A DNA stretch of 64,000 nt, taken from a virus. Below the pieces are notes generated by a model. The model worked only from the letters and a program-made list of their open reading frames with translations. It ran no database searches and had not been told where the DNA came from. The DNA lies in IMG/VR virus record IMGVR_UViG_3300042521_002634, positions 1-64,000 of that record, one strand, 5' to 3'. The translations under genes and the position numbers were made by a program. This document shows positions 46,931 through 62,249 of this stretch, piece by piece (within the stretch, counting starts at the first letter, position 1; each line of letters opens with the position of its first letter).

Positions 46931-46949
46931 TTCCAAAGTTTTTATAATG
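46931..46949 (+). promoter_or_regulatory. Repeated accessory promoter, plus strand, leaderless
   Basis: TTCCAAAGTTTTTATAATG, a near match to the TTCCAGAG...TATAAT family of the accessory region. The TATAAT (46943-46948) is exactly 6 nt before ATG 46955. Confidence 0.7.
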
Positions 46950-46954
46950 ATGAC

Positions 46955-47314
46955 ATGATGAAAAGAAAAAACATTGTGAGTGTGCTACAAAGTTTGAGTG
47001 AGAAAAGCGCGCGTGCAAAGAGCTTGCCTCCTCTCACTCGAGCAGAGATGAGCAAGTGGCGAGATCCATTTGGCAGAGAGATGTTGACTAGCGCCTCTGC
47101 GTTCGCTCAACAGAAAGAGAAAGCAGAAAAGAAAAAGCGATTTGTTGTTGTTCGACACAGCGATGGAAAAGCTTGGTCAGGTCCATGGCTTAACGATGGA
47201 AAGCGATTCTCCTCAGTAGAAAGCAAGTGGCACTACTTCTTGCGAGAAGAAGACGCGGAGCAAGCTGTAGAGCGCGAAGGCTTCGACTATAGAGTTGATG
47301 TGTTTGAAATGTAG
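46955..47314 (+). CDS. Rightward 119-aa basic protein, leaderless
   Basis: One of the few plus-strand genes. It begins MMKRKNIVSVLQSL at ATG 46955, 6 nt after a TATAAT. It is Lys/Arg/Glu-rich, with a C-terminal half 'RFVVVRHSDGKAWSGPWLND' and 'YFLREEDAEQAVEREGFDY' that looks like a small alpha/beta fold, perhaps related to WGR-like or SPOR-like domains. The function is unknown. It is transcribed convergently with the peptidoglycan-binding gene. Confidence 0.65.
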   Translation: MMKRKNIVSVLQSLSEKSARAKSLPPLTRAEMSKWRDPFGREMLTSASAFAQQKEKAEKKKRFVVVRHSDGKAWSGPWLNDGKRFSSVESKWHYFLREEDAEQAVEREGFDYRVDVFEM

Positions 47315-47327
47315 AGCGTGACTATGC

Positions 47328-47771
47328 TTAGACGATGACGTTGATGAATGGTTCATCAGCGAACAAAGCTACAAGCATGTCCGCATCGACAGTGCCGGTT
47401 ACCGCACGGTTGTTGGCCGCTTGATATTGCTCTACCGCACGCTTAGTTGCGTCTGCATACCAGCCGTCTTTGTCAGTGCCTGCTTCATTGAACCCGCATT
47501 CGACTAAACGACGTTGAAGGTGATGTACTGACAACGACTTGCGTGTTGCTGGGTTTTTGTAGATGCACATGTCAAGCCGCACGTCATCGCTGTCCGCACC
47601 GCTTGCGACAATTCCTACGCCAGACTTGACCGCACGCTTACGCGGCGCAGGTTCAGGTGTTGGTTCAGGTGTTGGTTCAGGAGCAGGCGCTACTGGCTGC
47701 TCTTCGACAACTACCGCAGCCTCTGCCACGACTGGAGTCTCTTCAACTGCTGGGGTTTCTTCGTTGCTCAT
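47328..47771 (-). CDS. Peptidoglycan-binding (PG_binding_1-like) domain protein
   Basis: A 147-aa protein. Residues 1 to about 50 are a Glu/Pro/Val-rich flexible region with 'EPTPEPTPEPAP'. Residues about 75-145 form a peptidoglycan-binding domain ('SVHHLQRRLVECGFNEAG', 'DGWYADATKRAVEQYQAANN', 'VTGTVDADMLVALF'). No signal peptide is seen, so it may be a virion or lysis-associated protein that binds the cell wall. It stands next to the large terminase. Confidence 0.7.
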   Translation of the reverse strand: MSNEETPAVEETPVVAEAAVVVEEQPVAPAPEPTPEPTPEPAPRKRAVKSGVGIVASGADSDDVRLDMCIYKNPATRKSLSVHHLQRRLVECGFNEAGTDKDGWYADATKRAVEQYQAANNRAVTGTVDADMLVALFADEPFINVIV

Positions 47772-47805
47772 TTGTTTACCGTACTTTCTTTAAAGACTTG
47801 ATGTG

Positions 47806-47818
47806 TAATTGTATACCC
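47806..47818 (-). promoter_or_regulatory. Possible promoter for the peptidoglycan-binding gene
   Basis: Minus-strand GGGTATACAATTA contains a TACAAT -10 about 40 nt upstream of ATG 47771, in the short gap after the terminase stop. Confidence 0.35.
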
Positions 47819-47821
47819 GCA

Positions 47822-49237
47822 CTAGCGAGGCGAGAACACACGGCCACCGCCGCGGCCATTGCCGTTCCTAAAGCTTGGCAAGCGTCTGTGCGCCAACGAC
47901 TTGGCTGTGATAGTTCCTCCGAGGAAGCCCGCAGGTGGCTTGATTAGCAAAGCAGTAAGTGCGTGAACTAAGGCGTCAACTCTGTCTGGTGACTTGCCTT
48001 CACCTGGAATCCATGCGCACATCTGCGACTCGAGGTCCGCAAGATAATTGACGTGATGCACGCGGTTTTGCTCGTAGGCAAGTGTGATTGGTTCAGCACG
48101 CAAGGCTTTGCCGACCTTTGAATGAACCTCAAATACTTTGATCGTTGGGTCGATTGTGTTGATGGCATTCCGCACTAGTGCGCCGCCTTGGTTTACTTCT
48201 GCTACAACAGGGCACGACCACTTGCGCGCCATTTGAACTACCGTATTGGCCCAGCGGTCTGGCGCGCCAAGAAGTGACGCGTCCTCGAGAACCCATGAAT
48301 GACGCTTGTACAAGTCACGTTCGCCTGTGGAAGCAACAACAACAATCCCGCATTCGTCGCGCGGATTCTCGGCTACGGACGGGTCGACGCCGATGCAGCG
48401 CAATGGCGCGCCAAGCGGCAGTTGTTTTTCCCGGGCGCGTTCAATCAGCTCGATAGTCCACAGCGCGCCTTCGATGTCACTAAGCATTTCACCGTAGAGC
48501 TCTTGAGCTGCCAACCGAGTGCCCTCGTAAACGCCTGTGATTGCGTCAAGATAGGTGCTTGAAAGGTTGCCCGCATTGTCAAGTGTCGAACCTCGTGACA
48601 CGACAACGCGCCCAGTTTTTTCTGCCTCGTTCAGCAAGCCGTACAGCATTGGCACACGCTTTGGCGTTGTAGTGCAGATGATTTGTGGATTGGCGCCAAG
48701 ACGAGTTGCAACTCGAACGTTGTCCCACGACGTCATGCCCGCAGCGTCTGGCGACTGACGCCACGCCGCAATCTCGTCGCACCAGGCGTAGTGAAACTGA
48801 GGACCGCGAAGGCCGTCGGGTTCGTCAGCAGTAAAGCAAGTAGCCGTATTTCCGTTGGGCCAAGTCAGACGGCGCTTCGATGGCTCGTATAGTGGGCGCT
48901 CGCTTGGCGGCGAAACAGAAATGATACCAGATTCGCCTTCAACAATTACGTCACGAACGTCGGCTGCAGTACGAGCGACAAGGGCAAAGCGAAGTTGGCC
49001 CATGTTTGTGACCTTAGCTCTATCACGAACCCACTCCGCAGCTGACCGCGTCTTACCAGCACCGCGGCCAGCGAGGTACATCCATATTGACCAGTCATCT
49101 CCCGGCGGTGGCACTTGTTCCGGCCTTGCCCAGAGTTTCCAGTCCCACACAAGAAGCTCTGGGTCGATTCCGTCGAGAACTTTGTCACGCTCTTCGCGCG
49201 GCAACTTAGCAAGCTCTTCCATGATGCTCTTGGCCAT
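47822..49237 (-). CDS. terL: Terminase large subunit
   Basis: A 471-aa packaging motor. ATPase: Walker A 'LAGRGAGKTRSAAEWV', Walker B 'FHYAWCDEIAAW', coupling 'ICTTTPKRVPML'. RNase H-like nuclease: 'CIGVDPSVAENPRDECG', 'VVAEVNQGG' and C-terminal 'PDRVDALVHALTALL'. The start is ATG 49237. A TACAAT lies exactly 6 nt upstream with no Shine-Dalgarno, which predicts a leaderless transcript even for this essential gene. Confidence 0.93.
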   Translation of the reverse strand: MAKSIMEELAKLPREERDKVLDGIDPELLVWDWKLWARPEQVPPPGDDWSIWMYLAGRGAGKTRSAAEWVRDRAKVTNMGQLRFALVARTAADVRDVIVEGESGIISVSPPSERPLYEPSKRRLTWPNGNTATCFTADEPDGLRGPQFHYAWCDEIAAWRQSPDAAGMTSWDNVRVATRLGANPQIICTTTPKRVPMLYGLLNEAEKTGRVVVSRGSTLDNAGNLSSTYLDAITGVYEGTRLAAQELYGEMLSDIEGALWTIELIERAREKQLPLGAPLRCIGVDPSVAENPRDECGIVVVASTGERDLYKRHSWVLEDASLLGAPDRWANTVVQMARKWSCPVVAEVNQGGALVRNAINTIDPTIKVFEVHSKVGKALRAEPITLAYEQNRVHHVNYLADLESQMCAWIPGEGKSPDRVDALVHALTALLIKPPAGFLGGTITAKSLAHRRLPSFRNGNGRGGGRVFSPR

Positions 49238-49243
49238 GGAGCT

Positions 49244-49249
49244 ATTGTA
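49244..49249 (-). promoter_or_regulatory. Promoter -10 for leaderless terminase gene
   Basis: Minus-strand TACAAT, 6 nt before ATG 49237, inside the end of the upstream zinc-finger gene (stop at 49250). Confidence 0.5.
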
Positions 49250-49477
49250 CTACGAAGCAGCAGCCTTGTAGCCGCAAGGGCAGTGTTTTGAAAGCATTGG
49301 CATCATCCTTGCGCCACACCTCGGGCAGGGCTCTTCAACTGCCCTGCGCGAGTGATCACGGTCGTCGTAGTGTTTGTACGAAGTTACGTCCGCATGCTTT
49401 TTGACAACATGAATCATCGCATCGTTCGCGCTGTCGTGTCTGGCATCGCAGAACTTGCACTTATGTTTGCCTGCCAC
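49250..49477 (-). CDS. C2H2/zinc-ribbon small protein
   Basis: 75 aa from the GTG at 49477 (GGAG 6 nt upstream, TAGTG overlap with the transglycosylase stop). It has a C2H2 finger, 'CKFCDARHDSANDAMIHVVK' ending KH, and then a ribbon, 'CPRCGARMMPMLSKHCPCG'. It is likely a DNA- or RNA-binding regulator or packaging accessory. Its end abuts the terminase promoter. Confidence 0.65.
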   Translation of the reverse strand: MAGKHKCKFCDARHDSANDAMIHVVKKHADVTSYKHYDDRDHSRRAVEEPCPRCGARMMPMLSKHCPCGYKAAAS

Positions 49478-50004: not shown

Positions 50005-50005
50005 G

Positions 50006-50620: not shown

Positions 50621-50645
50621 CATTATACACTGCTTTAGAATCCAA
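50621..50645 (-). promoter_or_regulatory. Variant accessory promoter upstream of 50600
   Basis: Minus strand TTCTAAAGCAGTGTATAATG, a degenerate member of the family with a good TATAAT (50622-50627). Confidence 0.5.
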
Positions 50646-51200
50646 ACTTTTTTCGACACTCAGGTCCAAGTTGCAACTCACGAGAGCGAACATCTGTGAG
50701 CTCAGCTCCACATGAACCGCAGCACGAGTAGTGCTTGCCGAAGAGTTGCGTGTACTTGTACGGATCAACCGAGAGAATTGCGACGACTTCTTTAGTCTGC
50801 TCCGCTGTAAGCTTGCCGCGGTTAAACGCGCCCGGAGCTCCATGGAGCGTGCGAATGTAGAGAGTGTTCATGTACTCTTTGATCTCAACAAAAAGCAAGT
50901 CATTTGCTACTTTGACTGACGACAGCTCGAGTTCGTCCGCAGGGATTGCGTACTTTGATTTCGGCACGCTTGCGAGAAGTGTCTGCATTCCGCCGGTCGC
51001 TTTCACGCGCTTAGGCAGCGCCAGAAACGAGCTGATGTCCGAGCTTGCGTGCGACTTTGTGTAGTGGCCAGCAGAGATCGTGTCTTCAATGTGCTCCGCA
51101 GTATCCGCGTCAACCTCTCGGGTTGCGAGCAAGTCGCGGACAAAGCTGATCTGCTTTGGAGTCGCCATGTGGCGAAGTGTGTCTACGGCAGTAATTGTCA
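50635..51200 (-). CDS. DUF6011-like zinc-ribbon protein
   Basis: 188 aa from ATG 51200 (GAAGGA upstream). The N-terminus reads 'MATPKQISFVRDLLATREVD', and the C-terminus 'CCGSCGAELTDVRSRELQLG' then 'PECRKKFG' is a treble-clef-like ribbon as in DUF6011 proteins. These recur in phages and plasmids of Actinomycetota, and a role in nucleic-acid binding is likely but unproven. Its start lies about 45 nt after a family promoter. Confidence 0.65.
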
Positions 51201-51243
51201 TAACGTCCTTCAGTCGGGCCAAGCGGGTTTGCTTGACAATTAA

Positions 51244-51262
51244 ATTATATAAACTCTGGAAA
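51244..51262 (-). promoter_or_regulatory. Accessory promoter P (51244)
   Basis: Minus strand TTTCCAGAGTTTATATAAT. The -10 is TATAAT (51244-51249). It drives the 51200 gene. Confidence 0.75.
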
Positions 51263-51336: not shown

Positions 51337-51642
51337 TTAGAATTCGTAGCAGTAGTATTCGTGGCGCTCGCCGACGTAGAGCTTGAGGCCGCCTCTCATC
51401 GAGGATCCTTGCAGTACGTACTGGCCATTCGCGCGAAGCGTGAACGTCATTGTTTCGCCTTGTGGATTTGGTGTGATAATCCACTGATTGCTCATTGGCG
51501 CACCGGTTGCAACAGCGTTGTCGCGTTGGGCGACCACTGTTTTGTTGTTTTCACTGACCGCGATAACAGTCATCGCAATCGTGTCGGCGCAGAATGAGAC
51601 GGATGCTCCCATTCCAATTTCTGGTTTAATCATGGTTTTCAT
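51337..51642 (-). CDS. Small hypothetical protein, 101 aa
   Basis: Starts MKTMIKPEIGMGASVSF at ATG 51642 behind the shared leader (GACGAAAGGAC). It is beta-rich and ends 'KLYVGERHEYYCYEF'. It is a monocistronic unit with its own promoter upstream and hairpin downstream. It is unrecognised. Proteins made from such early cassettes often act on host functions. Confidence 0.6.
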   Translation of the reverse strand: MKTMIKPEIGMGASVSFCADTIAMTVIAVSENNKTVVAQRDNAVATGAPMSNQWIITPNPQGETMTFTLRANGQYVLQGSSMRGGLKLYVGERHEYYCYEF

Positions 51643-51683: not shown

Positions 51684-51710
51684 ATAAATATATCATCTCT
51701 GGAACTCGAG
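51684..51710 (-). promoter_or_regulatory. Accessory promoter P (51684)
   Basis: Minus strand CTCGAGTTCCAGAGATGATA, then TATTTAT. It drives the 51642 gene. An almost identical copy stands on the plus strand at 54093. Confidence 0.75.
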
Positions 51711-51749: not shown

Positions 51750-52118
51750 TTAGCGGTTTGGGTAGAAGGGAATGTTAAGCAGTTTGCAGTGAGCGTCGAT
51801 GAAGTCGATGATTGGTTTGCCGAATGCCGATATGCAGTCGTCGAAGTCGTCGCAGAAGTCTGAACCGGCGTAGTCGTAGCGTACGCCGTAGTTAAGTGTT
51901 TCGTCGGCTGAAAAGCCGATATTGACGAAGTCGAAGACGTTGCCGTTGTAGTCGTGGCTGAAGTTGTTGAAAAACTCAGTGGTTTCGGTTGGGTCGTCGA
52001 TGCCGGACTTAGTTGTAAGTAAGTAGGCGAGTGACAGTTTTGCGTCGAAGCTGACAGTTTCGTTGTCGATGTCGGTAAGCGTGATTTCGTAGGTGTCAGT
52101 TTTGAGTTGCGTTTTCAT
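51750..52118 (-). CDS. Small acidic hypothetical protein, 122 aa
   Basis: ATG 52118 behind the shared leader (GACAAAAGGAC). The sequence is strongly acidic ('YEITLTDIDNETVSFDAKLS', 'DYAGSDFCDDFDDCISAF') and alpha/beta. Acidic, small, monocistronic phage proteins are often DNA mimics or inhibitors of host enzymes, but nothing specific is recognised here. It is similar in style to the 60170 gene. Confidence 0.6.
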   Translation of the reverse strand: MKTQLKTDTYEITLTDIDNETVSFDAKLSLAYLLTTKSGIDDPTETTEFFNNFSHDYNGNVFDFVNIGFSADETLNYGVRYDYAGSDFCDDFDDCISAFGKPIIDFIDAHCKLLNIPFYPNR

Positions 52119-52147: not shown

Positions 52148-52172
52148 CATTATACAAACTCTGGAACTCGAG
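52148..52172 (-). promoter_or_regulatory. Accessory promoter P (52148)
   Basis: Minus strand CTCGAGTTCCAGAGTTTG followed by TATAATG, the consensus form. It drives the 52118 gene and overlaps the 3' end of the previous gene by one or two bases. Confidence 0.8.
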
Positions 52173-53185: not shown

Positions 53186-53443
53186 CTAGCCCTGGGTTGG
53201 CAGCTGAATTTCTTGCCCAGGGTAGATTGTAGACGTGCCAAGGTTTAGAACTAAGTCGTCCATGGCATTTACAACGTTGCCTGAGCAATTTGCCTGAGCG
53301 ATGCCGTGTAGCGTCTGGCCTTCCTGCACTGTCACGGCCGGCGAGTTGCAAGTGTACTTGCCACTCTCTTGCGCGACCTTGACTAAGCCTACAGCCGCAA
53401 CTGCTGCCAGGGCAACAAAAAACATTTTACGTGCTTTCGTCAT
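53186..53443 (-). CDS. Secreted LysM-domain protein
   Basis: An 85-aa protein with an N-terminal membrane or signal segment ('KMFFVALAAVAAVGLVKVA') and a LysM-like domain ('VTVQEGQTLHGIAQANCSGN', 'LGTSTIYPGQEIQLPTQG') stabilised by two Cys. It is predicted to bind peptidoglycan outside the membrane. AAGGAGACTTAA precedes the ATG. It may block superinfection, aid lysis, or remodel the wall. Confidence 0.75.
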   Translation of the reverse strand: MTKARKMFFVALAAVAAVGLVKVAQESGKYTCNSPAVTVQEGQTLHGIAQANCSGNVVNAMDDLVLNLGTSTIYPGQEIQLPTQG

Positions 53444-53474: not shown

Positions 53475-53500
53475 ACTATTTTAACTTCTTTGGAACTGAG
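53475..53500 (-). promoter_or_regulatory. Variant accessory promoter (53475)
   Basis: Minus strand CTCAGTTCCAAAGAAGTTAA, then AATAGT. It drives the LysM gene. Confidence 0.55.
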
Positions 53501-53552: not shown

Positions 53553-53777
53553 CTAATAAGCGTACGAGTTTGAGTGACCCCAGACACGTTGATGTACCGC
53601 CGCGATGTCCGCAGCCTGCTCGTTGCTTTCGCATTCCATCTTTAAAATGACGGAATCGCTCGAGTCACCAGTCGGGCTTGCGAACCAAAGTTCAAGGGTT
53701 TTGCCGTAGAGCATGTAACCTCTGAACGCGCCTTTGCTCTCTCGAACAGTCGAGAGTGCTTCGTCTGTCATTGCCAT
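53553..53777 (-). CDS. Small hypothetical protein, 74 aa
   Basis: ATG 53777 (MAMTDEALSTVRESKG) follows an AAAGGAC leader. It contains 'GYMLYGKTLELWFASPTGDS' and 'ECESNEQAADIAAVHQRVWG', an alpha/beta arrangement with no recognised family. A single-gene unit with its own promoter and terminator hairpin. Confidence 0.6.
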   Translation of the reverse strand: MAMTDEALSTVRESKGAFRGYMLYGKTLELWFASPTGDSSDSVILKMECESNEQAADIAAVHQRVWGHSNSYAY

Positions 53778-53821: not shown

Positions 53822-53844
53822 ATTATATTAACTTCTCTGGAATC
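53822..53844 (-). promoter_or_regulatory. Accessory promoter P (53822)
   Basis: Minus strand GATTCCAGAGAAGTTAATAT followed by AAT. The -10 is TATAAT (53822-53827). It drives the 53777 gene. Confidence 0.75.
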
Positions 53845-54013
53845 AATGCCCGTAGCGTCGAAGCAGCTCGCACGCGATTGTCATCGGATACGATGACGCG
53901 ACATTGCGAACTACCTCCGCAACGATGTCGTCTTCGCCCAGATCCGGGTAATCGGCTTTCGCGTCTTGGATACCGATCTGTACCTCGACGAGAGCGTCAT
54001 TTAACGTTCTCAT
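53843..54013 (-). CDS. 56-aa small acidic protein
   Basis: ATG 54013 (MRTLNDALVEVQIGIQDA) with AAAGGAT at good spacing. An ATG 6 nt upstream is too close to the RBS. It is acidic and helical, ending 'ACELLRRYGH'. It is unrecognised. It stands behind a promoter divergent from the WGR-like gene. Confidence 0.6.
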   Translation of the reverse strand: MRTLNDALVEVQIGIQDAKADYPDLGEDDIVAEVVRNVASSYPMTIACELLRRYGH

Positions 54014-54037: not shown

Positions 54038-54060
54038 TACAATGTATCATCTCCGGAACT
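54038..54060 (-). promoter_or_regulatory. Accessory promoter P (54038), divergent pair, left
   Basis: Minus strand AGTTCCGGAGATGATACATT. It drives the 53843 gene and faces away from the plus-strand copy 33 bp to the right. Confidence 0.7.
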
Positions 54061-54092: not shown

Positions 54093-54118
54093 CTAGTTCC
54101 GGAGATGATATATTTATC
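54093..54118 (+). promoter_or_regulatory. Accessory promoter P (54093), divergent pair, right
   Basis: Plus strand CTAGTTCCGGAGATGATATA, then TTTATC, nearly identical to the minus-strand element at 51684. It drives the WGR-like gene. Confidence 0.75.
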
Positions 54119-54155: not shown

Positions 54156-54404
54156 ATGAAAAAATGGTGCTTGCTTAAAGGAAGCGACATCGGCCCAATG
54201 GGACGAGGTCAGAATGGCAAGAAGAAAGTCTACGAGGTAATCGCAGATGGTTCAGTGTTGCGTTGCTCGTGGGGCATGGCAGAGAAGATCAACCGCCAGT
54301 CAAGCGTGCAAGTGTATCACTCAGGCCAAGCAGCAATGTCAGCCGCGTACGAAAAAGTGTACGCAAAGCGAGACAAGGGATACGCTCTAGCTTACGAAGT
54401 TTAA
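54156..54404 (+). CDS. WGR-like domain protein
   Basis: An 82-aa rightward protein behind the shared leader (GACGAAAGGACGAAA, ATG 54156). It shows 'KKVYEVIADGSVLRCSWGMA' followed by Gln, 'SGQAAMSAAYEKVYAKRDKG' and 'YALAYEV'. This is the order of conserved positions in WGR domains (Tyr strand, W-G centre, A...F/Y...K, final G-Y). In PARPs, WGR domains bind DNA ends and nucleic acid. This free-standing form could bind DNA or regulate host processes. Resemblance by eye only. Confidence 0.55.
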   Translation: MKKWCLLKGSDIGPMGRGQNGKKKVYEVIADGSVLRCSWGMAEKINRQSSVQVYHSGQAAMSAAYEKVYAKRDKGYALAYEV

Positions 54405-54453: not shown

Positions 54454-54475
54454 CAGTTTCCAGAGTTGTTATATT
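54454..54475 (+). promoter_or_regulatory. Accessory promoter P (54454), leaderless
   Basis: Plus strand CAGTTTCCAGAGTTGTTATA, then TT. The -10 TATATT (54470-54475) is exactly 6 nt before ATG 54482. Confidence 0.75.
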
Positions 54476-54481: not shown

Positions 54482-54733
54482 ATGACAAACATACAAACAC
54501 ACCAAATAATCAACATCCATCACGAACCTGAATACTTGACTACTGTCACGTTTAACTACTACGGCGACCCGTACGCCATATCGCACATCGGCAACCTAAA
54601 CGGCATCGACAGCTACTGCGTAAACAGCGTCAACAGCAACGAGTACTACGAATACCTCGCTGCCAACTGCGACTTCATCGTCGACTTGCTCAAAAATAAT
54701 CCGCGCATCGACGCCGCGCTTCACAGCAAATAA
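54482..54733 (+). CDS. Small hypothetical protein, 83 aa, leaderless
   Basis: MTNIQTHQIINIHHEPEYL start, no Shine-Dalgarno, ATG 6 nt after the -10. It contains 'VTFNYYGDPYAISHIGNLNG' and 'YEYLAANCDFIVDLLKNNPR', an alpha/beta fold rich in Asn/Tyr. It has no recognised family. It ends before a bidirectional terminator. Confidence 0.65.
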   Translation: MTNIQTHQIINIHHEPEYLTTVTFNYYGDPYAISHIGNLNGIDSYCVNSVNSNEYYEYLAANCDFIVDLLKNNPRIDAALHSK

Positions 54734-55230: not shown

Positions 55231-55470
55231 TTAACGAGTTCGGCGTGCAGTGCGCCGCAGCCTACGCCGCTCATTACCAGTAAGTCCGCCCCAGACGCCG
55301 ATCTGTTCGTTGTCTAGCGCGTAGTCCAAACACTCCTGCCTGACTAAGCACCCAGCGCAGACGACCTTGGCCTGCCGCGTGACTATACGCGATTTCTCGT
55401 TATGGAACAAATCTCCTTTGCCGGCGCACGCCGCATGCTGCATCCAATGCTGCTGCTTAGCGATGCGCAT
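55231..55470 (-). CDS. whiB: WhiB-like (Wbl) iron-sulfur transcription regulator
   Basis: A 79-aa protein with the four Wbl cysteines ('HAACAGKGD', 'VVCAGCLVRQECLDYAL'), the invariant turn 'GVWGGLT' and a basic C-terminal DNA-binding tail ('NERRRLRRTARRTR'). Wbl proteins carry a 4Fe-4S cluster and bind region 4 of the primary sigma factor to change promoter choice. They are specific to Actinomycetota and their phages. The start overlaps the upstream stop (TAATG). It is a candidate activator of promoters that lack a -35, such as those repeated here. Confidence 0.9.
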   Translation of the reverse strand: MRIAKQQHWMQHAACAGKGDLFHNEKSRIVTRQAKVVCAGCLVRQECLDYALDNEQIGVWGGLTGNERRRLRRTARRTR

Positions 55471-55874
55471 TACTTCACCCCTACTGGGGTGAAGTAACGC
55501 TTGACTGATTCTTGGAAGAATGAATGCTTCCCAGTCGCAACCTCACGTACGTAAATTGGGTACTTCGACCGCGAAGCCGCGATACCCGCAAACGCATACT
55601 CTTTTCCATTGACTGAGAAAGTCTTTCCAAGAAGACCTTCCGGCAAGTCGTACATCGAACCAAAACGAATGTAATCTGTCGCTTCTACTGAAGCGAGATT
55701 GACTCCATTTGGTCCAGTCTCGACTGGCTGAGCTTCAATCTTGAGTGAGTAAAGTTGTCCGTACTTTATGGAGACTTTGCCTCGCTCGAGACCATGTTTT
55801 GCGAAGATTGCCACTGCAGCTTTTTCAAGCTCGTTAGTAATTTCCTGCGCAAGTGATCTGCTTACTGCTGTCAT
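55470..55874 (-). CDS. Hypothetical protein, 134 aa
   Basis: Starts MTAVSRSLAQEITNELEKAA, behind GAAAGGACAAACAA. It has an N-terminal helix, then a beta-rich body ('RGKVSIKYGQLYSLKIEAQP', 'GKTFSVNGKEYAFAGIAASR', 'VREVATGKHSFFQESVKRYF'). It is coupled to whiB and driven by a family promoter. I do not recognise it. Confidence 0.6.
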   Translation of the reverse strand: MTAVSRSLAQEITNELEKAAVAIFAKHGLERGKVSIKYGQLYSLKIEAQPVETGPNGVNLASVEATDYIRFGSMYDLPEGLLGKTFSVNGKEYAFAGIAASRSKYPIYVREVATGKHSFFQESVKRYFTPVGVK

Positions 55875-55903: not shown

Positions 55904-55924
55904 ATTATAACAAACTCTGGAAAC
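55904..55924 (-). promoter_or_regulatory. Accessory promoter P (55904)
   Basis: Minus strand GTTTCCAGAGTTTGTTATAA followed by T. The -10 is TATAAT. It drives the 55874-whiB pair. Confidence 0.75.
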
Positions 55925-55936: not shown

Positions 55937-56044
55937 TTACTTTATGTAAAACCACCACAGATCTTCTTCTTTTTCTTCTTCTAGCCTCGCTCGAGGCGCC
56001 GGCTGCCACAGCCACAGCATTGCGCGTTTGACAGCCGCGAGCAC
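55937..56044 (-). CDS. 35-aa Trp-rich peptide coupled to the subtilase gene
   Basis: GTG 56044 overlaps the subtilase stop (TAGTG). The product has 'VKRAMLWLWQPAPRARLEEE' and ends 'EEDLWWFYIK': Trp-rich ends around an Arg/Glu-rich middle. It may be a peptide substrate, a membrane-active peptide, or a chance frame. Confidence 0.4.
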   Translation of the reverse strand: MLAAVKRAMLWLWQPAPRARLEEEKEEDLWWFYIK

Positions 56045-57288
56045 TATCCAACTGCAATCGAGCTGTACGGCGCTCCACCTACAAGTACGATTACATTATA
56101 CCCACTTAGGTTTCTAGTCGTCGTGAACTTTACCGCACCGCTGGCTGAAGAAGTCTTCGTCCAAGTAAAGGATGACTTAGCTTTTGCTAGTGCGCTAATT
56201 TGCATCTTTGTTCCGGGGAGCGAAGATTCAACTGCGATCTCGTAGCCTTCTGAAGTTTTCGTCACCGCAACTGTTACAGAAGTAGACGACGGCACTTCAG
56301 TCCCATTGTCGATCTCTTTGACAATTGTTGTTGAAGTTGTTGTTGTCACCGCAGGCGCAGAACTAGACCCAGACAATGGAGCGTACAGCAACTTGTTTGG
56401 AGAACCCACGCCAGCGTCAGTAATCGCATCGCTGGTGGCAGAACTCACAATCAACGAAGTAACGTCAGTTACAGACAGCGCTGGACTATTCTGTAGCGCT
56501 AACGCCGCGACGCCGGTGACGTGTGGCGCCGCGTGTGACGTACCTTTAAGAGTTTTAGACGCTGTTGGCGACGTAGCCCACGCTGACAGCACGTTTGCGC
56601 CTGGAGCAAATATGTCAACACACTTGCCGTAGTTAGCCCATGACCACCTAGCGTCGTTTTCATCACTCGCCGCAACGTTGATCGCGCTTGGAGTAGACCC
56701 CGGCGAGTAACTGCACGCGTCCTTATTGTTGTTGCCGGCTGCAGTAACTACTACAATTCCATCTGCAATCGCGCGATCGACCGCAGCATTTACTTTTGAT
56801 GACAAGTTTCCACTCATGCTGATATTCATGACTGCAGGCTCGCCAGTCTTGTGATCTGCTACTGCCCAGTCGATGCCCGCGATCATGTCAGACGTCCAAC
56901 CATTACCACTACAGTCTGTGACCCGCACAGGGACAAGAGTCACCTTTGGCGCTACGCCGTAGGTTGACCCGCCGACTACGCCGGCGACATGAGTGCCATG
57001 TCCGTAGCAGTCCTCAGTTCCTCGCCCATCAAGAATTTTAGTGAAACCCGCACGAATTCTGCCTGTAAACTCTTCATGCGACGAGAGTATGCCACTGTCA
57101 ACTACGTAGACAGTGACGCCTTGACCATTAAGCGCCAGCGAAACGTCTTTGTTCAACGGCAGTGAGCGTTGATCAATGCGATCAATATTCCACTGAGCTG
57201 TAGCAACGGCTTCCGCATTTCCATAGATTAAGGCGATTACGACGGCAACTATCGCCGCCACAATTGCAAACTTATTTTTTACTTTCAT
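56044..57288 (-). CDS. Secreted subtilisin-like serine protease (S8)
   Basis: A 414-aa protein. The N-terminus is a signal peptide or anchor ('KFAIVAAIVAVVIALIYGNA'). The catalytic triad is complete: Asp in 'VTVYVVDSGILSSHEEF', His in 'CYGHGTHVAGVVGG', Ser in 'LKGTSHAAPHVTGVAAL', with the oxyanion Asn in 'VVTAAGNNNKD'. A Thr/Ser-rich linker and a C-terminal beta-domain (residues about 320-414) follow. There is no large propeptide. RBS AGGAG and an ATGA overlap couple it to a small membrane protein gene upstream. Phage-encoded subtilases are rare. It may cleave surface proteins, aid release, or block superinfection. Confidence 0.85.
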   Translation of the reverse strand: MKVKNKFAIVAAIVAVVIALIYGNAEAVATAQWNIDRIDQRSLPLNKDVSLALNGQGVTVYVVDSGILSSHEEFTGRIRAGFTKILDGRGTEDCYGHGTHVAGVVGGSTYGVAPKVTLVPVRVTDCSGNGWTSDMIAGIDWAVADHKTGEPAVMNISMSGNLSSKVNAAVDRAIADGIVVVTAAGNNNKDACSYSPGSTPSAINVAASDENDARWSWANYGKCVDIFAPGANVLSAWATSPTASKTLKGTSHAAPHVTGVAALALQNSPALSVTDVTSLIVSSATSDAITDAGVGSPNKLLYAPLSGSSSAPAVTTTTSTTIVKEIDNGTEVPSSTSVTVAVTKTSEGYEIAVESSLPGTKMQISALAKAKSSFTWTKTSSASGAVKFTTTRNLSGYNVIVLVGGAPYSSIAVG

Positions 57289-57494
57289 CGTGAGCTCCTG
57301 TATGATTCGTCAGTTGCACGCATGATACTTTCCCATGATGCTTTTCTGTCGTCAGCCTCTGAGCTTCTGACTATTACGCGATCGCCGTACTTAGCACGAC
57401 GATTTAGTTCACCGCGTTCTTTCCACAGAGACCAGCCAGCTACCGCGAAGAAGCTCGCAATGATAGCTTGAAACATAGCTTGAACAACTCTCAT
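57285..57494 (-). CDS. 69-aa membrane protein coupled to subtilase
   Basis: ATG 57494 overlaps the upstream stop (TAATG). One membrane helix ('AMFQAIIASFFAVAGWSLW') is followed by a charged tail ('KERGELNRRAKYGDRVIV') ending YRSSR. The ATGA overlap with the subtilase implies fixed co-expression. It could anchor, chaperone or inhibit the protease. Confidence 0.6.
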   Translation of the reverse strand: MRVVQAMFQAIIASFFAVAGWSLWKERGELNRRAKYGDRVIVRSSEADDRKASWESIMRATDESYRSSR

Positions 57495-57601
57495 TATCGA
57501 CCACGCTTGCGCGATATCGACATACCGGCGATTAAGAACACCGCGACTGCCCAAGCAACCGCAGCGGCAGTATTGTAGAACTCTATATCTATTCTCATCA
57601 T
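57494..57601 (-). CDS. 35-aa single-helix membrane peptide
   Basis: ATG 57601 behind AAAGGAGAAA. MMRIDIEFYNTAAAVAWAV leads into a hydrophobic helix ending 'SRKRGR'. It is the first gene of a tightly coupled operon: peptide, membrane protein, subtilase, Trp-rich peptide. The positive-inside tail suggests an N-out or reentrant membrane anchor. Confidence 0.55.
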   Translation of the reverse strand: MMRIDIEFYNTAAAVAWAVAVFLIAGMSISRKRGR

Positions 57602-57646: not shown

Positions 57647-57666
57647 ATATTACATTCTCTGGAACT
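57647..57666 (-). promoter_or_regulatory. Accessory promoter P (57647)
   Basis: Minus strand AGTTCCAGAGAATGTAATAT. It drives the subtilase operon. Confidence 0.7.
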
Positions 57667-58255
57667 AAACCGGCCCGCTCTGAACTTGTATGTTGAACGG
57701 CGCGCTCGTGTTTGCGTCCAACCTTGCCGCAACAGTAAGCGCAGTCTTGACCGCAGCCTTAGCTTTATCTATGTTGTCCGCACCTTCTGGAAGAAGAGCG
57801 TACAGCACACCGAGCGCGTATGGACTTCCAGTGCCAAGGCCGTAGATGCCACTTGTGTCTTTAACCCACGAGTAGTCTTCTCCGATGACGTACACCGCAC
57901 CATTGACTGCAGCCAGTATTATTGATCCAGACTCATCTGAATGATCTTTGTTGGGTGAAGGCGCTGTGTAACCTTGCTCGTTAAAGCACGCACGCAGTGA
58001 CGGAACAAAGTCGCTCGTTATGAATTTGTCAAGTCGGGTGCCGACAAAATTCTTAGCGTCAGGCGGACGGAATGCGTATTGCAAGATGTTGATCGCGCGC
58101 ACGTCGCCTGCAGCGCCAAGCAGATACGCACGATTCCGCGCGACCTTGGCTGAACCTTTAGGTAGAACGTAGACGCGCCCATCTTCTTCAGTGACACGCG
58201 AATCAGACCCAACTACAGTCCAGCCACTGCCAGTTACTGCAACTATCGTTGTCAT
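57665..58255 (-). CDS. Proteasome beta-subunit-like (Ntn-hydrolase) peptidase
   Basis: A 196-aa protein starting MTTIVAVTGSG. Removal of Met would expose the Thr1 nucleophile. Asp17 follows in 'VVGSDSRVTEEDG', and a Lys in 'KGSAKVARN' matches the K33 position. Then come 'LLGAAGDVRAINILQYAF' and 'IYGLGTGSPYALGVLYALLP' (the GSGxxxA motif region). These are the core features of proteasome beta/HslV-type proteases. No propeptide is present. It could self-assemble as an HslV-like ring, substitute for or poison the host proteasome, or serve as a phage Ntn peptidase. No alpha subunit or unfoldase is visible. Confidence 0.8.
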   Translation of the reverse strand: MTTIVAVTGSGWTVVGSDSRVTEEDGRVYVLPKGSAKVARNRAYLLGAAGDVRAINILQYAFRPPDAKNFVGTRLDKFITSDFVPSLRACFNEQGYTAPSPNKDHSDESGSIILAAVNGAVYVIGEDYSWVKDTSGIYGLGTGSPYALGVLYALLPEGADNIDKAKAAVKTALTVAARLDANTSAPFNIQVQSGPV

Positions 58256-58263: not shown

Positions 58264-58566
58264 CTATACCTTTTTGTCGAGTACGACAGGTGACATCGCA
58301 TAACGGAACTCTTTTCCATCAAGCTTGCCTTCGACTATCAATGATCTAGGCCACTTAGCCGCAACAACGCACTCGGCGCCGCGCAGGGCTTCGTACCCGC
58401 ATAGGTCATTTACAACAACTAGGTCTCCAGTCTCGTAGTCGGCGACTGAGCGCTTAGCGCGGATCTTCTGCGCATGGCGCGTCACCGCAGTCTCTATCGA
58501 GAACGCGACGTCGTCGTAGACTCCACTTTGCAGATCTGACAAAAACCTCTCAGCTTTTACCTTCAT
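58264..58566 (-). CDS. Hypothetical protein, 100 aa
   Basis: MKVKAERFLSDLQSGVYDD start, overlapping the HTH gene by 17 nt, with RBS GAGTTAA-like. Beta-rich C-terminal half ('GDLVVVNDLCGYEALRGAEC', 'RSLIVEGKLDGKEFRYAMSP'). It sits between an HTH regulator and the proteasome-like gene, in one operon. The function is unknown. Confidence 0.6.
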   Translation of the reverse strand: MKVKAERFLSDLQSGVYDDVAFSIETAVTRHAQKIRAKRSVADYETGDLVVVNDLCGYEALRGAECVVAAKWPRSLIVEGKLDGKEFRYAMSPVVLDKKV

Positions 58567-58759
58567 TGCTTAACTCCTCTACCGCACGCTTAATTTTCAG
58601 AATATCGGAGTTCTTCGACGTTGTCGGGTCAGTGACAAAGCGATTAACTTTCCTCGCTGTAGTGCCAGCCGACTCTGCAATTTTCTCAATGCCAATTTTC
58701 TTTACGGCATGCGCCAACTCGAGCATTTTCTCGATGTGACTTTCTAGTATGACTCCCAT
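58550..58759 (-). CDS. HTH (Cro-like) regulator, 69 aa
   Basis: RBS AAAGGAGAAGAC before the ATG. After an N-terminal helix it has 'KKIGIEKIAESAGTTARKVN' then 'RFVTDPTTSKNSDILKIKRA', a lambda-repressor/Cro-like HTH with its dimer helix. It leads the proteasome-like operon and may control it or the whole early region. Confidence 0.65.
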   Translation of the reverse strand: MGVILESHIEKMLELAHAVKKIGIEKIAESAGTTARKVNRFVTDPTTSKNSDILKIKRAVEELSNEGKS

Positions 58760-58800: not shown

Positions 58801-58818
58801 ATTATACATTCTCTGGAT
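58801..58818 (-). promoter_or_regulatory. Accessory promoter P (58801)
   Basis: Minus strand ATCCAGAGAATGTATAAT. It drives the HTH/proteasome-like operon. Confidence 0.75.
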
Positions 58819-58869: not shown

Positions 58870-58888
58870 CTACTCGCTATGGCAGCGA

Positions 58889-59161
58889 CTATACAGCTAG
58901 AGTGACCTCACCCTTAGCGACCTGTGACATCAGCCGGCACGCTTGTTTCGTGTCGTCTACTTTGACTGACGTGCCTGTCATGATGTCGAATACGAGATAG
59001 TGAGTACGATCATCCGCTCGCAACACCGCAAGCTTCTTTCGGCGACGAAAGTACGCTGCTGAGTACCCAGCCGGCAAACTTATGCCCGCTGCAAGTTCTG
59101 GGAGCTCTTCAGTCCGCGAACCTGGCTTAGCTCTATTTTTTGTTTCTGTTTCTGTTGTCAT
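58889..59161 (-). CDS. Hypothetical protein, 90 aa
   Basis: MTTETETKNRAKPGSRTEEL start, behind AAAAGGAGACATA. It contains 'SAAYFRRRKKLAVLRADDRT' and 'HYLVFDIMTGTSVKVDDTKQ', a small beta-sheet with a basic loop. It has no recognised family. Confidence 0.6.
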   Translation of the reverse strand: MTTETETKNRAKPGSRTEELPELAAGISLPAGYSAAYFRRRKKLAVLRADDRTHYLVFDIMTGTSVKVDDTKQACRLMSQVAKGEVTLAV

Positions 59162-59191
59162 TATGTCTCCTTTTGTTTTTGTTGTTATTAC

Positions 59192-59668: not shown

Positions 59669-59719
59669 TATTGTTCTCCTTTTGTAGTGTGTCGTTTTAG
59701 TTTTGAAAGAAGCAGAACT

Positions 59720-59857
59720 TTAGAAGTCCCACTTCTTTACGCGGCAAGCCTGACGATTCGCAAGCTTGCGCTTGTTAGGAATCTGCTGAGCTCTGAGGAT
59801 ATTTCTATCCGCAAAGGCTTGGCGACTTTCCGCGTTCCATTTGGTTGATGTTTTCAT
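59720..59857 (-). CDS. 45-aa basic protein, leaderless
   Basis: MKTSTKWNAESRQAFADRN start at ATG 59857, exactly 6 nt after the TATAAT of a family promoter, no Shine-Dalgarno. It ends 'RQACRVKKWDF'. It is highly basic, so nucleic-acid binding is possible. Confidence 0.6.
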   Translation of the reverse strand: MKTSTKWNAESRQAFADRNILRAQQIPNKRKLANRQACRVKKWDF

Positions 59858-59863
59858 ATATTC

Positions 59864-59888
59864 ATTATACAATCTCTGGAAACTCGAG
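59864..59888 (-). promoter_or_regulatory. Accessory promoter P (59864), leaderless
   Basis: Minus strand CTCGAGTTTCCAGAGATTG followed by TATAAT. It is identical over the whole element and spacer to the one at 60144 apart from the CTCGAG/CTTGAG edge. Confidence 0.8.
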
Positions 59889-60137
59889 TTAAAGACTGAA
59901 GATCGAAGTTTGTGAATCAAAGAACTCCATGTCGTCCTCTTGACCCAACCACTCAGCGAGAGTTTCCGAGTCGGATTCGTTGAAAACGATGTCGATATTT
60001 GGCCAGCCGGTGGATTCGGTGGCAATGTCGACGACGCGGACAAACGAGTCCGGAATAGTGTTTTTTAGGTCGATAATGGCGTCGAGAAGGTTTTCGGTGG
60101 CCAAGTCGACGTTGATGATTTTTGTGTGGTTGTTCAT
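59889..60137 (-). CDS. 82-aa acidic protein, leaderless
   Basis: MNNHTKIINVDLATENLLD start at ATG 60137, 6 nt after TATAAT. Acidic ('NESDSETLAEWLGQEDDMEF') with 'VRVVDIATESTGWPNIDIVF'. It is unrecognised. Overlaps none of its neighbours and has its own promoter. Confidence 0.6.
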   Translation of the reverse strand: MNNHTKIINVDLATENLLDAIIDLKNTIPDSFVRVVDIATESTGWPNIDIVFNESDSETLAEWLGQEDDMEFFDSQTSIFSL

Positions 60138-60143
60138 ATATTC

Positions 60144-60168
60144 ATTATACAATCTCTGGAAACTCAAG
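60144..60168 (-). promoter_or_regulatory. Accessory promoter P (60144), leaderless
   Basis: Minus strand CTTGAGTTTCCAGAGATTG followed by TATAAT, then GAATAT and ATG 60137. Confidence 0.8.
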
Positions 60169-60169
60169 T

Positions 60170-60472
60170 TTAGTAGGGACTTTGGCCGTTGTCGAAGCGG
60201 CTGTCAGTCGCGATGAGGGCCAGAAGGACATCGTAGTTGAAAACTTGTTCGATTTCAGATTCGTCGAAGAGTGGGGCCTCGAACGAGAACGTGGCGGCGT
60301 CGTTGCCGAGATTAATGAATGGCTGATTGTCGACGAAGTGAATTGTGAATATCGGGTCGAGGCCAAGTTCGTTGAAGTCGATTGTTGCGTTGTTGCAGTT
60401 AGCGTAGAAGTAGTCGATGTCGAAGTCGATTGTAACTGCGTTGTCTGTTTTTGTGATCGTGTAGGTTTTCAT
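60170..60472 (-). CDS. Acidic hypothetical protein, 100 aa
   Basis: ATG 60472 with AAAGGAAAAATC leader. Sequence MKTYTITKTDNAVTIDFDID is followed by a strongly acidic, beta-rich body ('ATIDFNELGLDPIFTIHFVD', 'FEAPLFDESEIEQVFNYDVL'). It resembles the 51750 product in charge and N-terminal MKT, but homology is unclear. DNA-mimic function is conceivable. Confidence 0.55.
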   Translation of the reverse strand: MKTYTITKTDNAVTIDFDIDYFYANCNNATIDFNELGLDPIFTIHFVDNQPFINLGNDAATFSFEAPLFDESEIEQVFNYDVLLALIATDSRFDNGQSPY

Positions 60473-60501
60473 GATTTTTCCTTTGTCGTTGTGTATATAA
60501 A

Positions 60502-60527
60502 CATTATACAAACTCTGGAAACTCGAG
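60502..60527 (-). promoter_or_regulatory. Accessory promoter P (60502)
   Basis: Minus strand CTCGAGTTTCCAGAGTTTG followed by TATAATG. It drives the 60472 gene through a 30-nt leader with an RBS. Confidence 0.8.
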
Positions 60528-60532
60528 TTGCT

Positions 60533-60739
60533 CTATCCGAACATCTCGGCCCAGCACTCTGGGTGCGTGCCTGAAACAAGCTGCTCACGAAGACCTCTGC
60601 TTAGATCAGGGAACGCGTTCTGTATCAACGCGCCCGCACTGCGTCGTGCAAGGCCTGAGTTCGGTACTTCTACCTCACCCTTGTATCCGCAATGAACGCA
60701 CCGCGGCGTCTCGACTACTGAGTAAAACTCTGTCCGCAT
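60533..60739 (-). CDS. 68-aa protein with CxxC motif
   Basis: ATG 60739 (MRTEFYSVVETPRCVHCGY) with AAGGAGCAGAGC. A CxxC near residue 15 and a Cys in 'THPECWAEMFG' may form a zinc site. It lies 10 nt downstream of the 60750 gene and is probably co-transcribed. Confidence 0.6.
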   Translation of the reverse strand: MRTEFYSVVETPRCVHCGYKGEVEVPNSGLARRSAGALIQNAFPDLSRGLREQLVSGTHPECWAEMFG

Positions 60740-60749
60740 GCTCTGCTCC

Positions 60750-60917
60750 TTAATCCCACAGAGGTTCGCGCGGTGTGAGTGCCGCAATGATGAGACATAC
60801 GCCCGAGATGCCGAGCTTGAACTGTGTCGACGTTCTCACGCCGAGGTGCTCTACACCAAGCAACCGCTCGAGTTCATTGATTGCGAGTTCGAATTCATTC
60901 TCTGTGTTTACTGCCAT
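60750..60917 (-). CDS. 55-aa membrane-associated peptide
   Basis: ATG 60917 with CAGGAGAACAAC. 'NEFELAINELERLLGVEHLG' helix followed by hydrophobic 'KLGISGVCLIIAALTP'. A single membrane helix is likely. Function unknown. Confidence 0.55.
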   Translation of the reverse strand: MAVNTENEFELAINELERLLGVEHLGVRTSTQFKLGISGVCLIIAALTPREPLWD

Positions 60918-60947
60918 GTTGTTCTCCTGTGTCATGTTGATAGTTTA

Positions 60948-60966
60948 ATTATATAAACTCTGGACT
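60948..60966 (-). promoter_or_regulatory. Accessory promoter P (60948)
   Basis: Minus strand AGTCCAGAGTTTATATAAT. It drives the 60917-60533 pair. Confidence 0.75.
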
Positions 60967-61258
60967 AGTACTCTGACATCATTCTGTCGTAGCGAATCTC
61001 TTCCGCAACCGCGTCGTCGTCGTACTTCTCGAGAGCGACCATCGCCTCATCGACGTTGGTGAACTCTTGTTCGTGAATGCAATCTACGTCTGCCGGCTCC
61101 CAGTACGTCGCTGGAATTGTCTTCCAAACTGTCCCGACGATGAGTCCGCTAGTCTGCACTTGCACTTCAAGCCCGAACAAGTCGCCTATCGCGAAGTACT
61201 CCGCAATGACGCCTTCAAACGGCTCTCTTGTTCCCCATTGTTTCTTCGTGTATTTCAT
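60965..61258 (-). CDS. Hypothetical protein, 97 aa
   Basis: MKYTKKQWGTREPFEGVIAE start with GAAAGGACGCAAT. 'YFAIGDLFGLEVQVQTSGLI' and a helical acidic C-terminus 'EAMVALEKYDDDAVAEEIRY'. It is monocistronic, with its stop overlapping the next promoter. Unrecognised. Confidence 0.6.
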   Translation of the reverse strand: MKYTKKQWGTREPFEGVIAEYFAIGDLFGLEVQVQTSGLIVGTVWKTIPATYWEPADVDCIHEQEFTNVDEAMVALEKYDDDAVAEEIRYDRMMSEY

Positions 61259-61284
61259 ATTGCGTCCTTTCGTTGTTATATATG

Positions 61285-61309
61285 CATTATATAAACTCTG
61301 GAACTCGAG
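61285..61309 (-). promoter_or_regulatory. Accessory promoter P (61285)
   Basis: Minus strand CTCGAGTTCCAGAGTTTA followed by TATAATG, consensus form, driving the 61258 gene. Confidence 0.8.
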
Positions 61310-61310
61310 T

Positions 61311-61457
61311 TTACTTCTTATTTTGCTTTTCGATGCACCTGACTAAGTCTTCAGCTATTTCTTTCTTTCTGAAGTACCTAACTCCAGACGGAGTTATTAC
61401 GTTCCAAGTGTGAATGCTTCTCTCAATACGTACCTGTTGTTTCGTCGTTGTAGTCAT
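61311..61457 (-). CDS. 48-aa basic protein, leaderless
   Basis: ATG 61457 exactly 6 nt after TATAAT. MTTTTKQQVRIERSIHTWNV then 'TPSGVRYFRKKEIAEDLVRC', a small beta-strand plus basic helix. Nucleic-acid binding is plausible. Confidence 0.6.
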   Translation of the reverse strand: MTTTTKQQVRIERSIHTWNVITPSGVRYFRKKEIAEDLVRCIEKQNKK

Positions 61458-61462
61458 GCAAC

Positions 61463-61487
61463 CATTATATAAACTCTGGAACTCGAG
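61463..61487 (-). promoter_or_regulatory. Accessory promoter P (61463), leaderless
   Basis: Minus strand CTCGAGTTCCAGAGTTTA followed by TATAATG, then 5 nt and the ATG. The element is identical to that at 61285. Confidence 0.8.
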
Positions 61488-61488
61488 T

Positions 61489-61659
61489 CTATATCGAGAT
61501 CGGGCAACTCAGGTTCGCATCGTTTGAGTGGAATCGAAGTTCCTGCTTGCAAACTGCGCAGATTTCGTCTAAGTCTAGACCAACAACGCTGTCGTTGTAG
61601 TCACGCATAGCTCGTCGTTTACCTGCTCGATAAGCGATGTACAGTCCTAAGATTCCCAT
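61489..61659 (-). CDS. 56-aa Cys-containing small protein, leaderless
   Basis: ATG 61659 is 6 nt after TATAAT. MGILGLYIAYRAGKRRAMRD forms a short membrane helix with a basic flank. The C-terminal half has 'DEICAVCKQELRFHSND' and a final Cys, a possible zinc site. Such membrane-plus-ribbon proteins are common in actinophages. Confidence 0.6.
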   Translation of the reverse strand: MGILGLYIAYRAGKRRAMRDYNDSVVGLDLDEICAVCKQELRFHSNDANLSCPISI

Positions 61660-61664
61660 AACTA

Positions 61665-61684
61665 CATTATAACAGCTCTGGATG
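61665..61684 (-). promoter_or_regulatory. Accessory promoter P (61665), leaderless
   Basis: Minus strand CATCCAGAGCTGTTATAATG, then 5 nt and ATG 61659. Confidence 0.7.
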
Positions 61685-61692
61685 TCCAAAGT

Positions 61693-61780
61693 GGCAGCGG
61701 TCTTGCCTTGCAGCCTCCCGCCAGGCCGATGCTTGAAATTGGCAGCGGTCTTGCCTCTGCAGCCTTCCACCAGGCCGATG
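61693..61780. repeat. Two tandem 40-bp direct repeats
   Basis: Copy 1 (61693-61731) and copy 2 (61741-61780) both begin GGCAGCGGTCTTGCCT and end CCAGGCCGATG, with a few differences between them, at a period of 48-49 bp. The repeat lies in a noncoding gap after the 61783 gene stop and before a promoter, in the place where other units have a hairpin. Confidence 0.8.
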
Positions 61781-61782
61781 TC

Positions 61783-61986
61783 TCAATCGCGTTTAGGGAA
61801 CGCAATGATCTTAGCATCAGGCGGTTCAGGCAGCACCTCGATGTCGAGGATGTCAACCATCTCTGCGTCTTCTATTCCCTGCGAGACAGCTGCGAATACC
61901 TCACCGTCTATCTCTGTGTATGCGTCAGGCCCGCGCCTCACGCACAGCCGGACCACTACTGAGTAGAGGACCGTGCCTTCACTCAT
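61783..61986 (-). CDS. Hypothetical protein, 67 aa
   Basis: ATG 61986 overlaps the upstream stop (ATGA). MSEGTVLYSVVVRLCVRRGP, then an acidic body 'DILDIEVLPEPPDAKIIAFP', ends KRD. A small beta-alpha protein, unrecognised, co-expressed with the 61983 gene. Confidence 0.55.
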   Translation of the reverse strand: MSEGTVLYSVVVRLCVRRGPDAYTEIDGEVFAAVSQGIEDAEMVDILDIEVLPEPPDAKIIAFPKRD

Positions 61987-62201
61987 GATTGTGCGGCGTC
62001 AGGGAACACCAACGGCAGCGCTAACTGCGCCGTCGGTTTCATCTTGCCGCCTGACAACTGCAGCGCGATACTTCCACGCTCGCCTTCAGGCGCGTTGTCG
62101 ACGTCTTCCCACTCGTCCTCGGTCCAGTCTGATGTGTCGACGACGACTAATTGACGAGCATTGCCGTAGTTTCCATCGGCAGCGAAATAGTGAATTGTCA
62201 T
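61983..62201 (-). CDS. Hypothetical protein, 72 aa
   Basis: MTIHYFAADGNYGNARQLVV start behind GAAAGGATAACCTA. 'TSDWTEDEWEDVDNAPEGER' is acidic, and the end is 'LALPLVFPDAAQS'. First gene of a two-gene unit under a family promoter. Similar small proteins recur in actinophages without known role. Confidence 0.6.
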   Translation of the reverse strand: MTIHYFAADGNYGNARQLVVVDTSDWTEDEWEDVDNAPEGERGSIALQLSGGKMKPTAQLALPLVFPDAAQS

Positions 62202-62229
62202 TAGGTTATCCTTTCGTTGTTGTTACGTA

Positions 62230-62249
62230 CATTATATAAACTCTGGAAG
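62230..62249 (-). promoter_or_regulatory. Accessory promoter P (62230)
   Basis: Minus strand TCTTCCAGAGTTTATATAAT. It drives the 62201-61783 pair. Confidence 0.75.

Follow-up and report, generated by a model that had tools for sequence, protein, structure and literature searches.

A genome-specific box upstream of the -10 in a family of promoters without a -35 signal, found in one phage clade

In the middle promoters of phage T4, the MotA box is centred near -30 and replaces the -35 (PMC6755090). The 21Q site lies at -21, and the AlpA binding element, 6 bp long, is read by one helix-turn-helix (HTH) at a position within the spacer (PMC6606751, PMC9371919). Middle and late promoters of P23-45 rely on an extended -10 and on a protein that displaces sigma region 4 (PMC7403470). 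Among the mycobacteriophages, the start-associated sequences (SAS) of cluster K are found at start codons and suggest a role in translation, and cluster O has palindromic repeats, most of which lie away from promoters (PMC3203893, PMC4351075). We analysed here a window of 64,000 bases, corresponding to bases 1-64,000 of the uncultivated virus record IMGVR_UViG_3300042521_002634 (full length 98,426 bp). A promoter of the form TTCCAGAG-N4-TATAAT, in which a short box precedes the -10, stands before nearly all the small genes of one region; about 30 copies are found at 46.9-69.2 kb of the record. Of the named phages, the nearest is Actinomycetia phage DSL-LC01 (OQ999401), with a terminase identity of 84%; it was assembled from a lake metagenome with a predicted actinobacterial host, and its description contains no promoter analysis (PMC10611076). 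The host of the window phage is probably also to be sought among freshwater actinobacteria.

The 98-kb record was scanned with an iterated position weight matrix (PWM) seeded with TTCCAGAG plus a -10 hexamer (threshold of at least 17.7 bits). It yielded 31 sites, 30 of them at 46,931-69,199 and one weak outlier at 96610. Twenty sites lie inside the window; as ten more are located past its end (record 64142-69199), the regulon extends beyond the region in which it was first noticed. A preliminary description, made from the letters of the window, had proposed about 20 near-identical promoters, one per small transcription unit, and the family turned out to have this organisation and to be larger. 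The block is present on the correct strand and at the correct distance at all 18 unit starts listed there, and likewise at the + strand site at 46931, near the terminases. As had also been claimed, the motif points with transcription on both strands: all 30 clustered sites are co-oriented with the next gene, and the two + strand islands (46931; 54097 and 54458) bear the box on the + strand, so that orientation follows the gene. The sites are intergenic, except for a handful whose first bases fall within the very end of the gene before them, and they sit at -10 elements, with four weak outliers in the record. Random occurrence within genes or on wrong strands was not what the controls revealed, since first-order Markov shuffles gave an expectation of 0.5 sites and the reversed genome gave 0, the reversed-sequence control being 0 in all 10 records tested. 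We regard the promoter class as almost certainly real. The sites within the window are the following.

46931-46948, + strand: box promoter TTCCAAAG-TTTT-TATAAT; ATG at 46955, 6 nt after the -10
51244-51261, - strand: box promoter TTCCAGAG-TTTA-TATAAT; gene 50635-51201
51687-51704, - strand: box promoter TTCCAGAG-ATGA-TATATT; gene 51337-51642
52149-52166, - strand: box promoter TTCCAGAG-TTTG-TATAAT; gene 51750-52118
53478-53495, - strand: weaker box promoter TTCCAAAG-AAGT-TAAAAT, absent from the preliminary description; gene 53186-53443
53825-53842, - strand: box promoter TTCCAGAG-AAGT-TAATAT; gene 53553-53777
54041-54058, - strand: box promoter TTCCGGAG-ATGA-TACATT, back to back with the + strand site at 54097; gene 53843-54013
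54097-54114, + strand: box promoter TTCCGGAG-ATGA-TATATT; gene 54156-54404
54458-54475, + strand: box promoter TTCCAGAG-TTGT-TATATT, with leaderless spacing to the ATG at 54482; open reading frame (ORF) 54482-54733
55905-55922, - strand: box promoter TTCCAGAG, with TATAAT at 5 bp (one base further); gene 55470-55874
57647-57664, - strand: box promoter TTCCAGAG-AATG-TAATAT; gene 57494-57601
58801-58818, - strand: box promoter ATCCAGAG-AATG-TATAAT, before the HTH candidate gene 58550-58759
59864-59881, - strand: box promoter; ATG 6 nt after the -10; ORF 59720-59857, its leaderless spacing kept in the orthologues placed
60144-60161, - strand: box promoter; ATG 6 nt after the -10; gene 59889-60137
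60503-60520, - strand: box promoter; gene 60170-60472
60948-60965, - strand: box promoter GTCCAGAG; gene 60750-60917
61286-61303, - strand: box promoter; gene 60965-61258
61464-61481, - strand: box promoter; ATG 6 nt after the -10; ORF 61311-61457
61666-61683, - strand: box promoter ATCCAGAG; ATG 6 nt after the -10; ORF 61489-61659
62231-62248, - strand: box promoter; gene 61983-62201

Relatives were collected from IMG/VR with the CobT-like protein (62315-64108) as query. The 78 loci obtained are mostly fragments, and genes in records that carried no annotation were called with a simple program. The gene for the CobT-like protein is paired with that for an AAA ATPase (window 62315 to record 65219); the pair is conserved and makes a good marker for the phage group. 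Per-locus motif analysis separated three broad promoter classes. Class I, to which the window phage belongs, lacks a -35 and has its box 4 bp before the -10. In class II, ACCTGA lies directly on TATAAT before small genes, in some cases with a weak TTTACTTT at -35; this second lineage-wide element is found in L029, L035, L040, L045, L057, L059, L069, L074 and other loci. Class III (L077-L079) has TTTACTTTGTC plus ACGG-TATAAT, and the outgroup locus L080 has a near-consensus TTGAC -35. On a maximum-likelihood tree of CobT, class I forms one clade of 18 rows (support 96/92), and the class labels need the minimum number of changes. The matching region of a distant relative, the cultured Microbacterium phage Pumpernickel, has long operons and no box promoters. 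Further scans with box variants returned mostly contigs already known, plus single matches that are probably due to chance.

Every class I genome was found to have promoters of identical geometry, tens of them in each. Simple-pattern counts gave 15-57 boxes per class I record, nearly all on one strand, and in L210 the box is present at 53 of the 56 -10-like hexamers in 20 kb. From 12 class I genomes, 486 sites were collected, TATAAT being numbered -12 to -7 and the transcription start taken as about 7 nt after it. The core, CYARRG, occupies -22 to -17, and the C at -22 is present in 482/486 sites. Its distance to TATAAT is exactly 4 bp in 268 of the 277 pairs lying within 12 bp, and in 18 of 21 TATAAT cases in the window phage; the spacing of 2-5 bp given earlier has thus to be replaced by an essentially fixed one. 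Of the conserved block previously drawn from -13 to -30, the box proper, at -24 to -17, stands, and above -25 nothing is reliably conserved but a weak YT near -30. CTCGAG, described as often preceding the block, abuts the box in only 6/34 sites in the window phage, 0/35 in DSL-LC01 and 1/62 in G003, and was rejected as a component of the element.

The absence of a TTGACA-like -35 was borne out: over 485 class I sites, the best match at 15-19 bp spacing scores 2.66 of 6, versus 2.70 and 2.82 at two control offsets. As the same score is 5.26 in the distant outgroup L080 and about 3.8 in class III, the -35 appears to have been lost in steps. An extended -10 (TG at -15/-14) was rejected as a general substitute, its frequency being 0-85% depending on the class I genome; it stands at 24% in the window phage, and five of the 12 genomes have it at 0-5%. 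Among the 470 promoters followed by an ORF, 90 have the ATG 6-7 nt downstream of the -10, as would be expected of leaderless mRNAs starting about 7 nt after TATAAT. A second peak is found at about 30 nt, where most other start codons lie, typically with a GAAAGGA-like ribosome site. In the window, start codons 6 nt after the -10 are those at 54482, 59857, 60137, 61457, 61659 and 46955, and for the small gene 59720-59857 this spacing is maintained across class I genomes. In seven of the eight genomes tested, the sequence immediately upstream of the box contains hairpins of greater stability than shuffled sequence does; in the window phage this signal is weak.

The letters of the box differ from genome to genome: TTCCAGAG in the window phage and TTCTAAAG, ATCTAAAG, AACTAAAG, CTARGGA, CTMNGGAA, CTAAAAG, CTAAAGAAAG or TTCTAAAAG in others. 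DSL-LC01 has no TTCCAGAG promoter, and its matching region (18-44 kb) carries 33 GA-TTCTAAAG-WTGT-TATAAT sites. Within one genome, unrelated genes share the letters, and orthologous genes switch them with the genome. The CobT promoter, for instance, has TTCCAGAG in the window phage, ATCTAAAG in DSL-LC01, TTCTAAAAG in G011 and TTCTAGGG in G003. Box identity is 0.763 for different genes of the same genome, 0.678 for the same gene in different genomes and 0.631 when neither is shared. That the letters follow the genome, with tens of sites shifted together, is the signature expected of a trans-acting, lineage-specific reader, and suggests that each phage lineage may have its own switch protein reading its box.

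We therefore incline to the view, drawn from sequence comparison, that these would be promoters of the host's sigma-A type with a box of 6-8 bp at -24 to -17, 4 bp upstream of the -10, in place of the -35, and that the box would be read by a phage factor. That this factor is phage-encoded seems to us rather likely. A lineage-specific protein would bind the box on the spacer DNA, beside sigma region 2/3, and would recruit or stabilise the host RNA polymerase on a promoter without a -35, and the whole small-gene block would be switched on together. The proposal of one regulon under specific recognition holds in that the promoters are a coordinated family, one per small unit, for which a sequence-specific factor is the simplest reading; the identity of that factor stays at candidate level, and the "early" timing is presumptive, judged from gene content and synteny only. 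Tentatively, we can be more specific: a minimal HTH activator may read the -22 to -17 box, replacing recognition of the -35 by sigma region 4 at 30-60 promoters or more in each genome, every gene cassette (promoter, ribosome-binding site, gene, often a hairpin) having one such promoter, and the factor and its sites may have shifted specificity together several times within one clade. Three proteins were considered as readers.

58550-58759, - strand: HTH protein of 69 amino acids (aa), candidate box reader
Record 68218-68730: winged-helix protein with a C-terminal helix, second candidate reader
55231-55470, - strand: WhiB-like protein of 79 aa, set aside as reader

A phage activator, either WhiB-like or HTH, had been suggested beforehand. 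An HTH activator of the phage is now the leading explanation, and the 69-aa protein tracks the promoter class. WhiB genes are present in phages of all promoter classes with enough sequence and do not explain the box, and WhiB was rejected as reader; a second WhiB-like protein is encoded at record 80344-80541. Apart from G006 (L028), all class I genomes with sufficient sequence encode the 69-aa HTH protein, and it was not found in five large class II/III records. When viral contigs were retrieved with this protein alone, 16/16 bore class I boxes, several of these contigs not having been seen before; conversely, two contigs found by their boxes outside the CobT set also encode it, and AT-rich chance matches do not. 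Its AlphaFold model (predicted local distance difference test, pLDDT, 84.5) has four helices, and its nearest folds are HTH folds of XRE/HipB/C-protein and LacI-headpiece type; a structure search with the model gave no match at E<=0.001. This protein is our first candidate, a possible reader rather than an expected one. The winged-helix protein (model pLDDT 84.6, PadR-like neighbours) is present in every record of classes I, II and III that has sufficient sequence, and in 0/18 outgroup loci. Being common to the three classes, it could also read class-specific elements; as reader of the class I box we hold it to be a weaker candidate, and doubtful.

Several observations weigh against assigning the box to either candidate. 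G006 has boxes across a complete-looking early region and no detectable 69-aa HTH protein; another protein of this genome, of 165 aa and encoded at 22726-23223, might take its place in DNA binding. A distant homologue of the 69-aa HTH protein (about 40 bits) occurs in one class II subclade without the box. When box divergence was compared with each shared protein in a Mantel-type test, neither candidate regulator stood out: box distance is uncorrelated with protein divergence beyond that of CobT (partial r -0.09 for the HTH protein and 0.17 for the winged-helix protein). Since class I is a single clade, shared descent makes any of its genes co-occur with the box, and gene co-occurrence is weak evidence of function. 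Lastly, both candidate genes lie behind box promoters that they would activate, so that the loop would be self-amplifying.

This last arrangement is also the starting point for a different reading, since something present at time zero must fire promoters that drive their own regulator. The box could be read by a host transcription factor, or by the host RNA polymerase with sigma-A through the spacer and an extended -10, the promoters being strong and constitutive and their letters differing with the host. Few or no canonical TTGACA/TATAAT promoters are found elsewhere in the window record, which favours this, as do the extended -10 TG reaching 85% in some lineages and the span of about 46-62% GC (guanine plus cytosine) among class I phages, which makes several hosts likely. 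Even so, no sigma-A contact is known to read CYARRG at -22 to -17, and with TG at 0-5% in five of 12 genomes the extended -10 is not a common substitute. Related class II and III phages use quite different elements, and a search of 84,980 bacterial genomes for CobT or the 69-aa HTH protein gave no match and thus no host genome. We consider a host reader unlikely, though to be taken seriously. Recognition of the whole unit by a phage-encoded sigma factor or RNA polymerase would account for the very high conservation from -24 to -7, and a modified RNA polymerase had been named as an option in the preliminary description. The -10, however, is a textbook sigma-A TATAAT, and no sigma-70 region 2 (PF04542) was found in 15 records, several of them fragments, with a control that matched in 11/14 genomes; a phage sigma factor was rejected on this result. 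The single-subunit RNA polymerase family (PF00940) gave no match either, though its control was silent too. This explanation we hold to be scarcely tenable.

The boxes could also be loading sites like those of Q and AlpA, where an HTH protein between -35 and -10 loads onto RNA polymerase and allows read-through of terminators between units. Their location fits, the Q and AlpA binding elements lying between -35 and -10 with a 21Q-sensitive base pair at -21 and a 6-bp AlpA element bound by one HTH (PMC6606751, PMC9371919), and the stable upstream hairpins fit as well, weak as they are in the window phage. The required -10-like pause element is missing, however (best match at +1 to +13 2.75/6, versus 3.04 in shuffled sequence), and known Q and AlpA promoters retain their -35, which leaves this reading quite improbable. 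Alternatively, the box might be an asymmetric operator laid over each promoter to silence the region, like the stoperators of cluster A mycobacteriophages. Small XRE/LacI-type HTH proteins are often repressors, and DSL-LC01 is predicted to be temperate by BACPHLIP (PMC10611076). Yet a repressor needs only overlap, whereas the box keeps a rigid distance from the -10. In contrast to stoperators, boxes seldom occur apart from a -10. A promoter under repression would still require a -35 of its own or an extended -10 in all members, and both are absent. Repression is, to our judgement, very improbable. If activation by a lineage-specific phage factor is true, freshwater actinobacteriophages, mostly uncultivated, would harbour about ten orthogonal pairs of promoter and regulator, all with the same geometry, and so offer a natural series for studying joint specificity change of a regulator and tens of binding sites. 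Actinobacterial genetics would also gain a useful promoter type, one where a factor bound to the spacer takes the place of the -35, and the box would be a sequence signature marking this phage clade in metagenomes.

Other features of the record were seen alongside. A subtilase-family protease (56044-57288) and a proteasome/HslV-like protein (57665-58255) are encoded near each other in the small-gene region, and the HslV-like protein is kept in relatives. No tRNA genes were found in the window. The end of the record (97324-98409) consists of low-complexity repeats coding for Val/Ala/Pro, whose counterpart in DSL-LC01 is a collagen-like region.

Compared with the systems described so far, class I promoters are closest in logic to T4 middle promoters, in which, under sigma appropriation by AsiA/MotA, a whole temporal class of genes keeps the host -10 and has a short box for a phage protein instead of the -35. 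The T4 box, however, is near -30, that of class I at -24 to -17 and 4 bp from the -10, and the class I host is probably actinobacterial; no MotA-like match was seen among the HTH and winged-helix matches, and no search was aimed at AsiA. With the lambda/21 Q and AlpA elements, the box shares a small element in the spacer next to the -10; the match is one of position, reading by an HTH being at candidate level here, and those promoters keep a -35 and need a pause element, whereas class I has no -35 and shows no pause element. The resemblance to the Q, AlpA and MotA systems would be functional only, and membership in them fails because position or pause element does not fit. The P23-45 promoters likewise lack a -35 and involve gp39, but depend on the extended -10, which in class I varies by lineage while the extra box is always present. 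The boxes are short repeats before many small actinobacteriophage genes, a trait they share with the cluster K SAS and the cluster O repeats of 17 bp. Cluster A stoperators are asymmetric sites that also occur away from promoters; the box sites are found instead at -10 elements, and, unlike the SAS and the cluster O repeats, every class I box site is locked to a -10.

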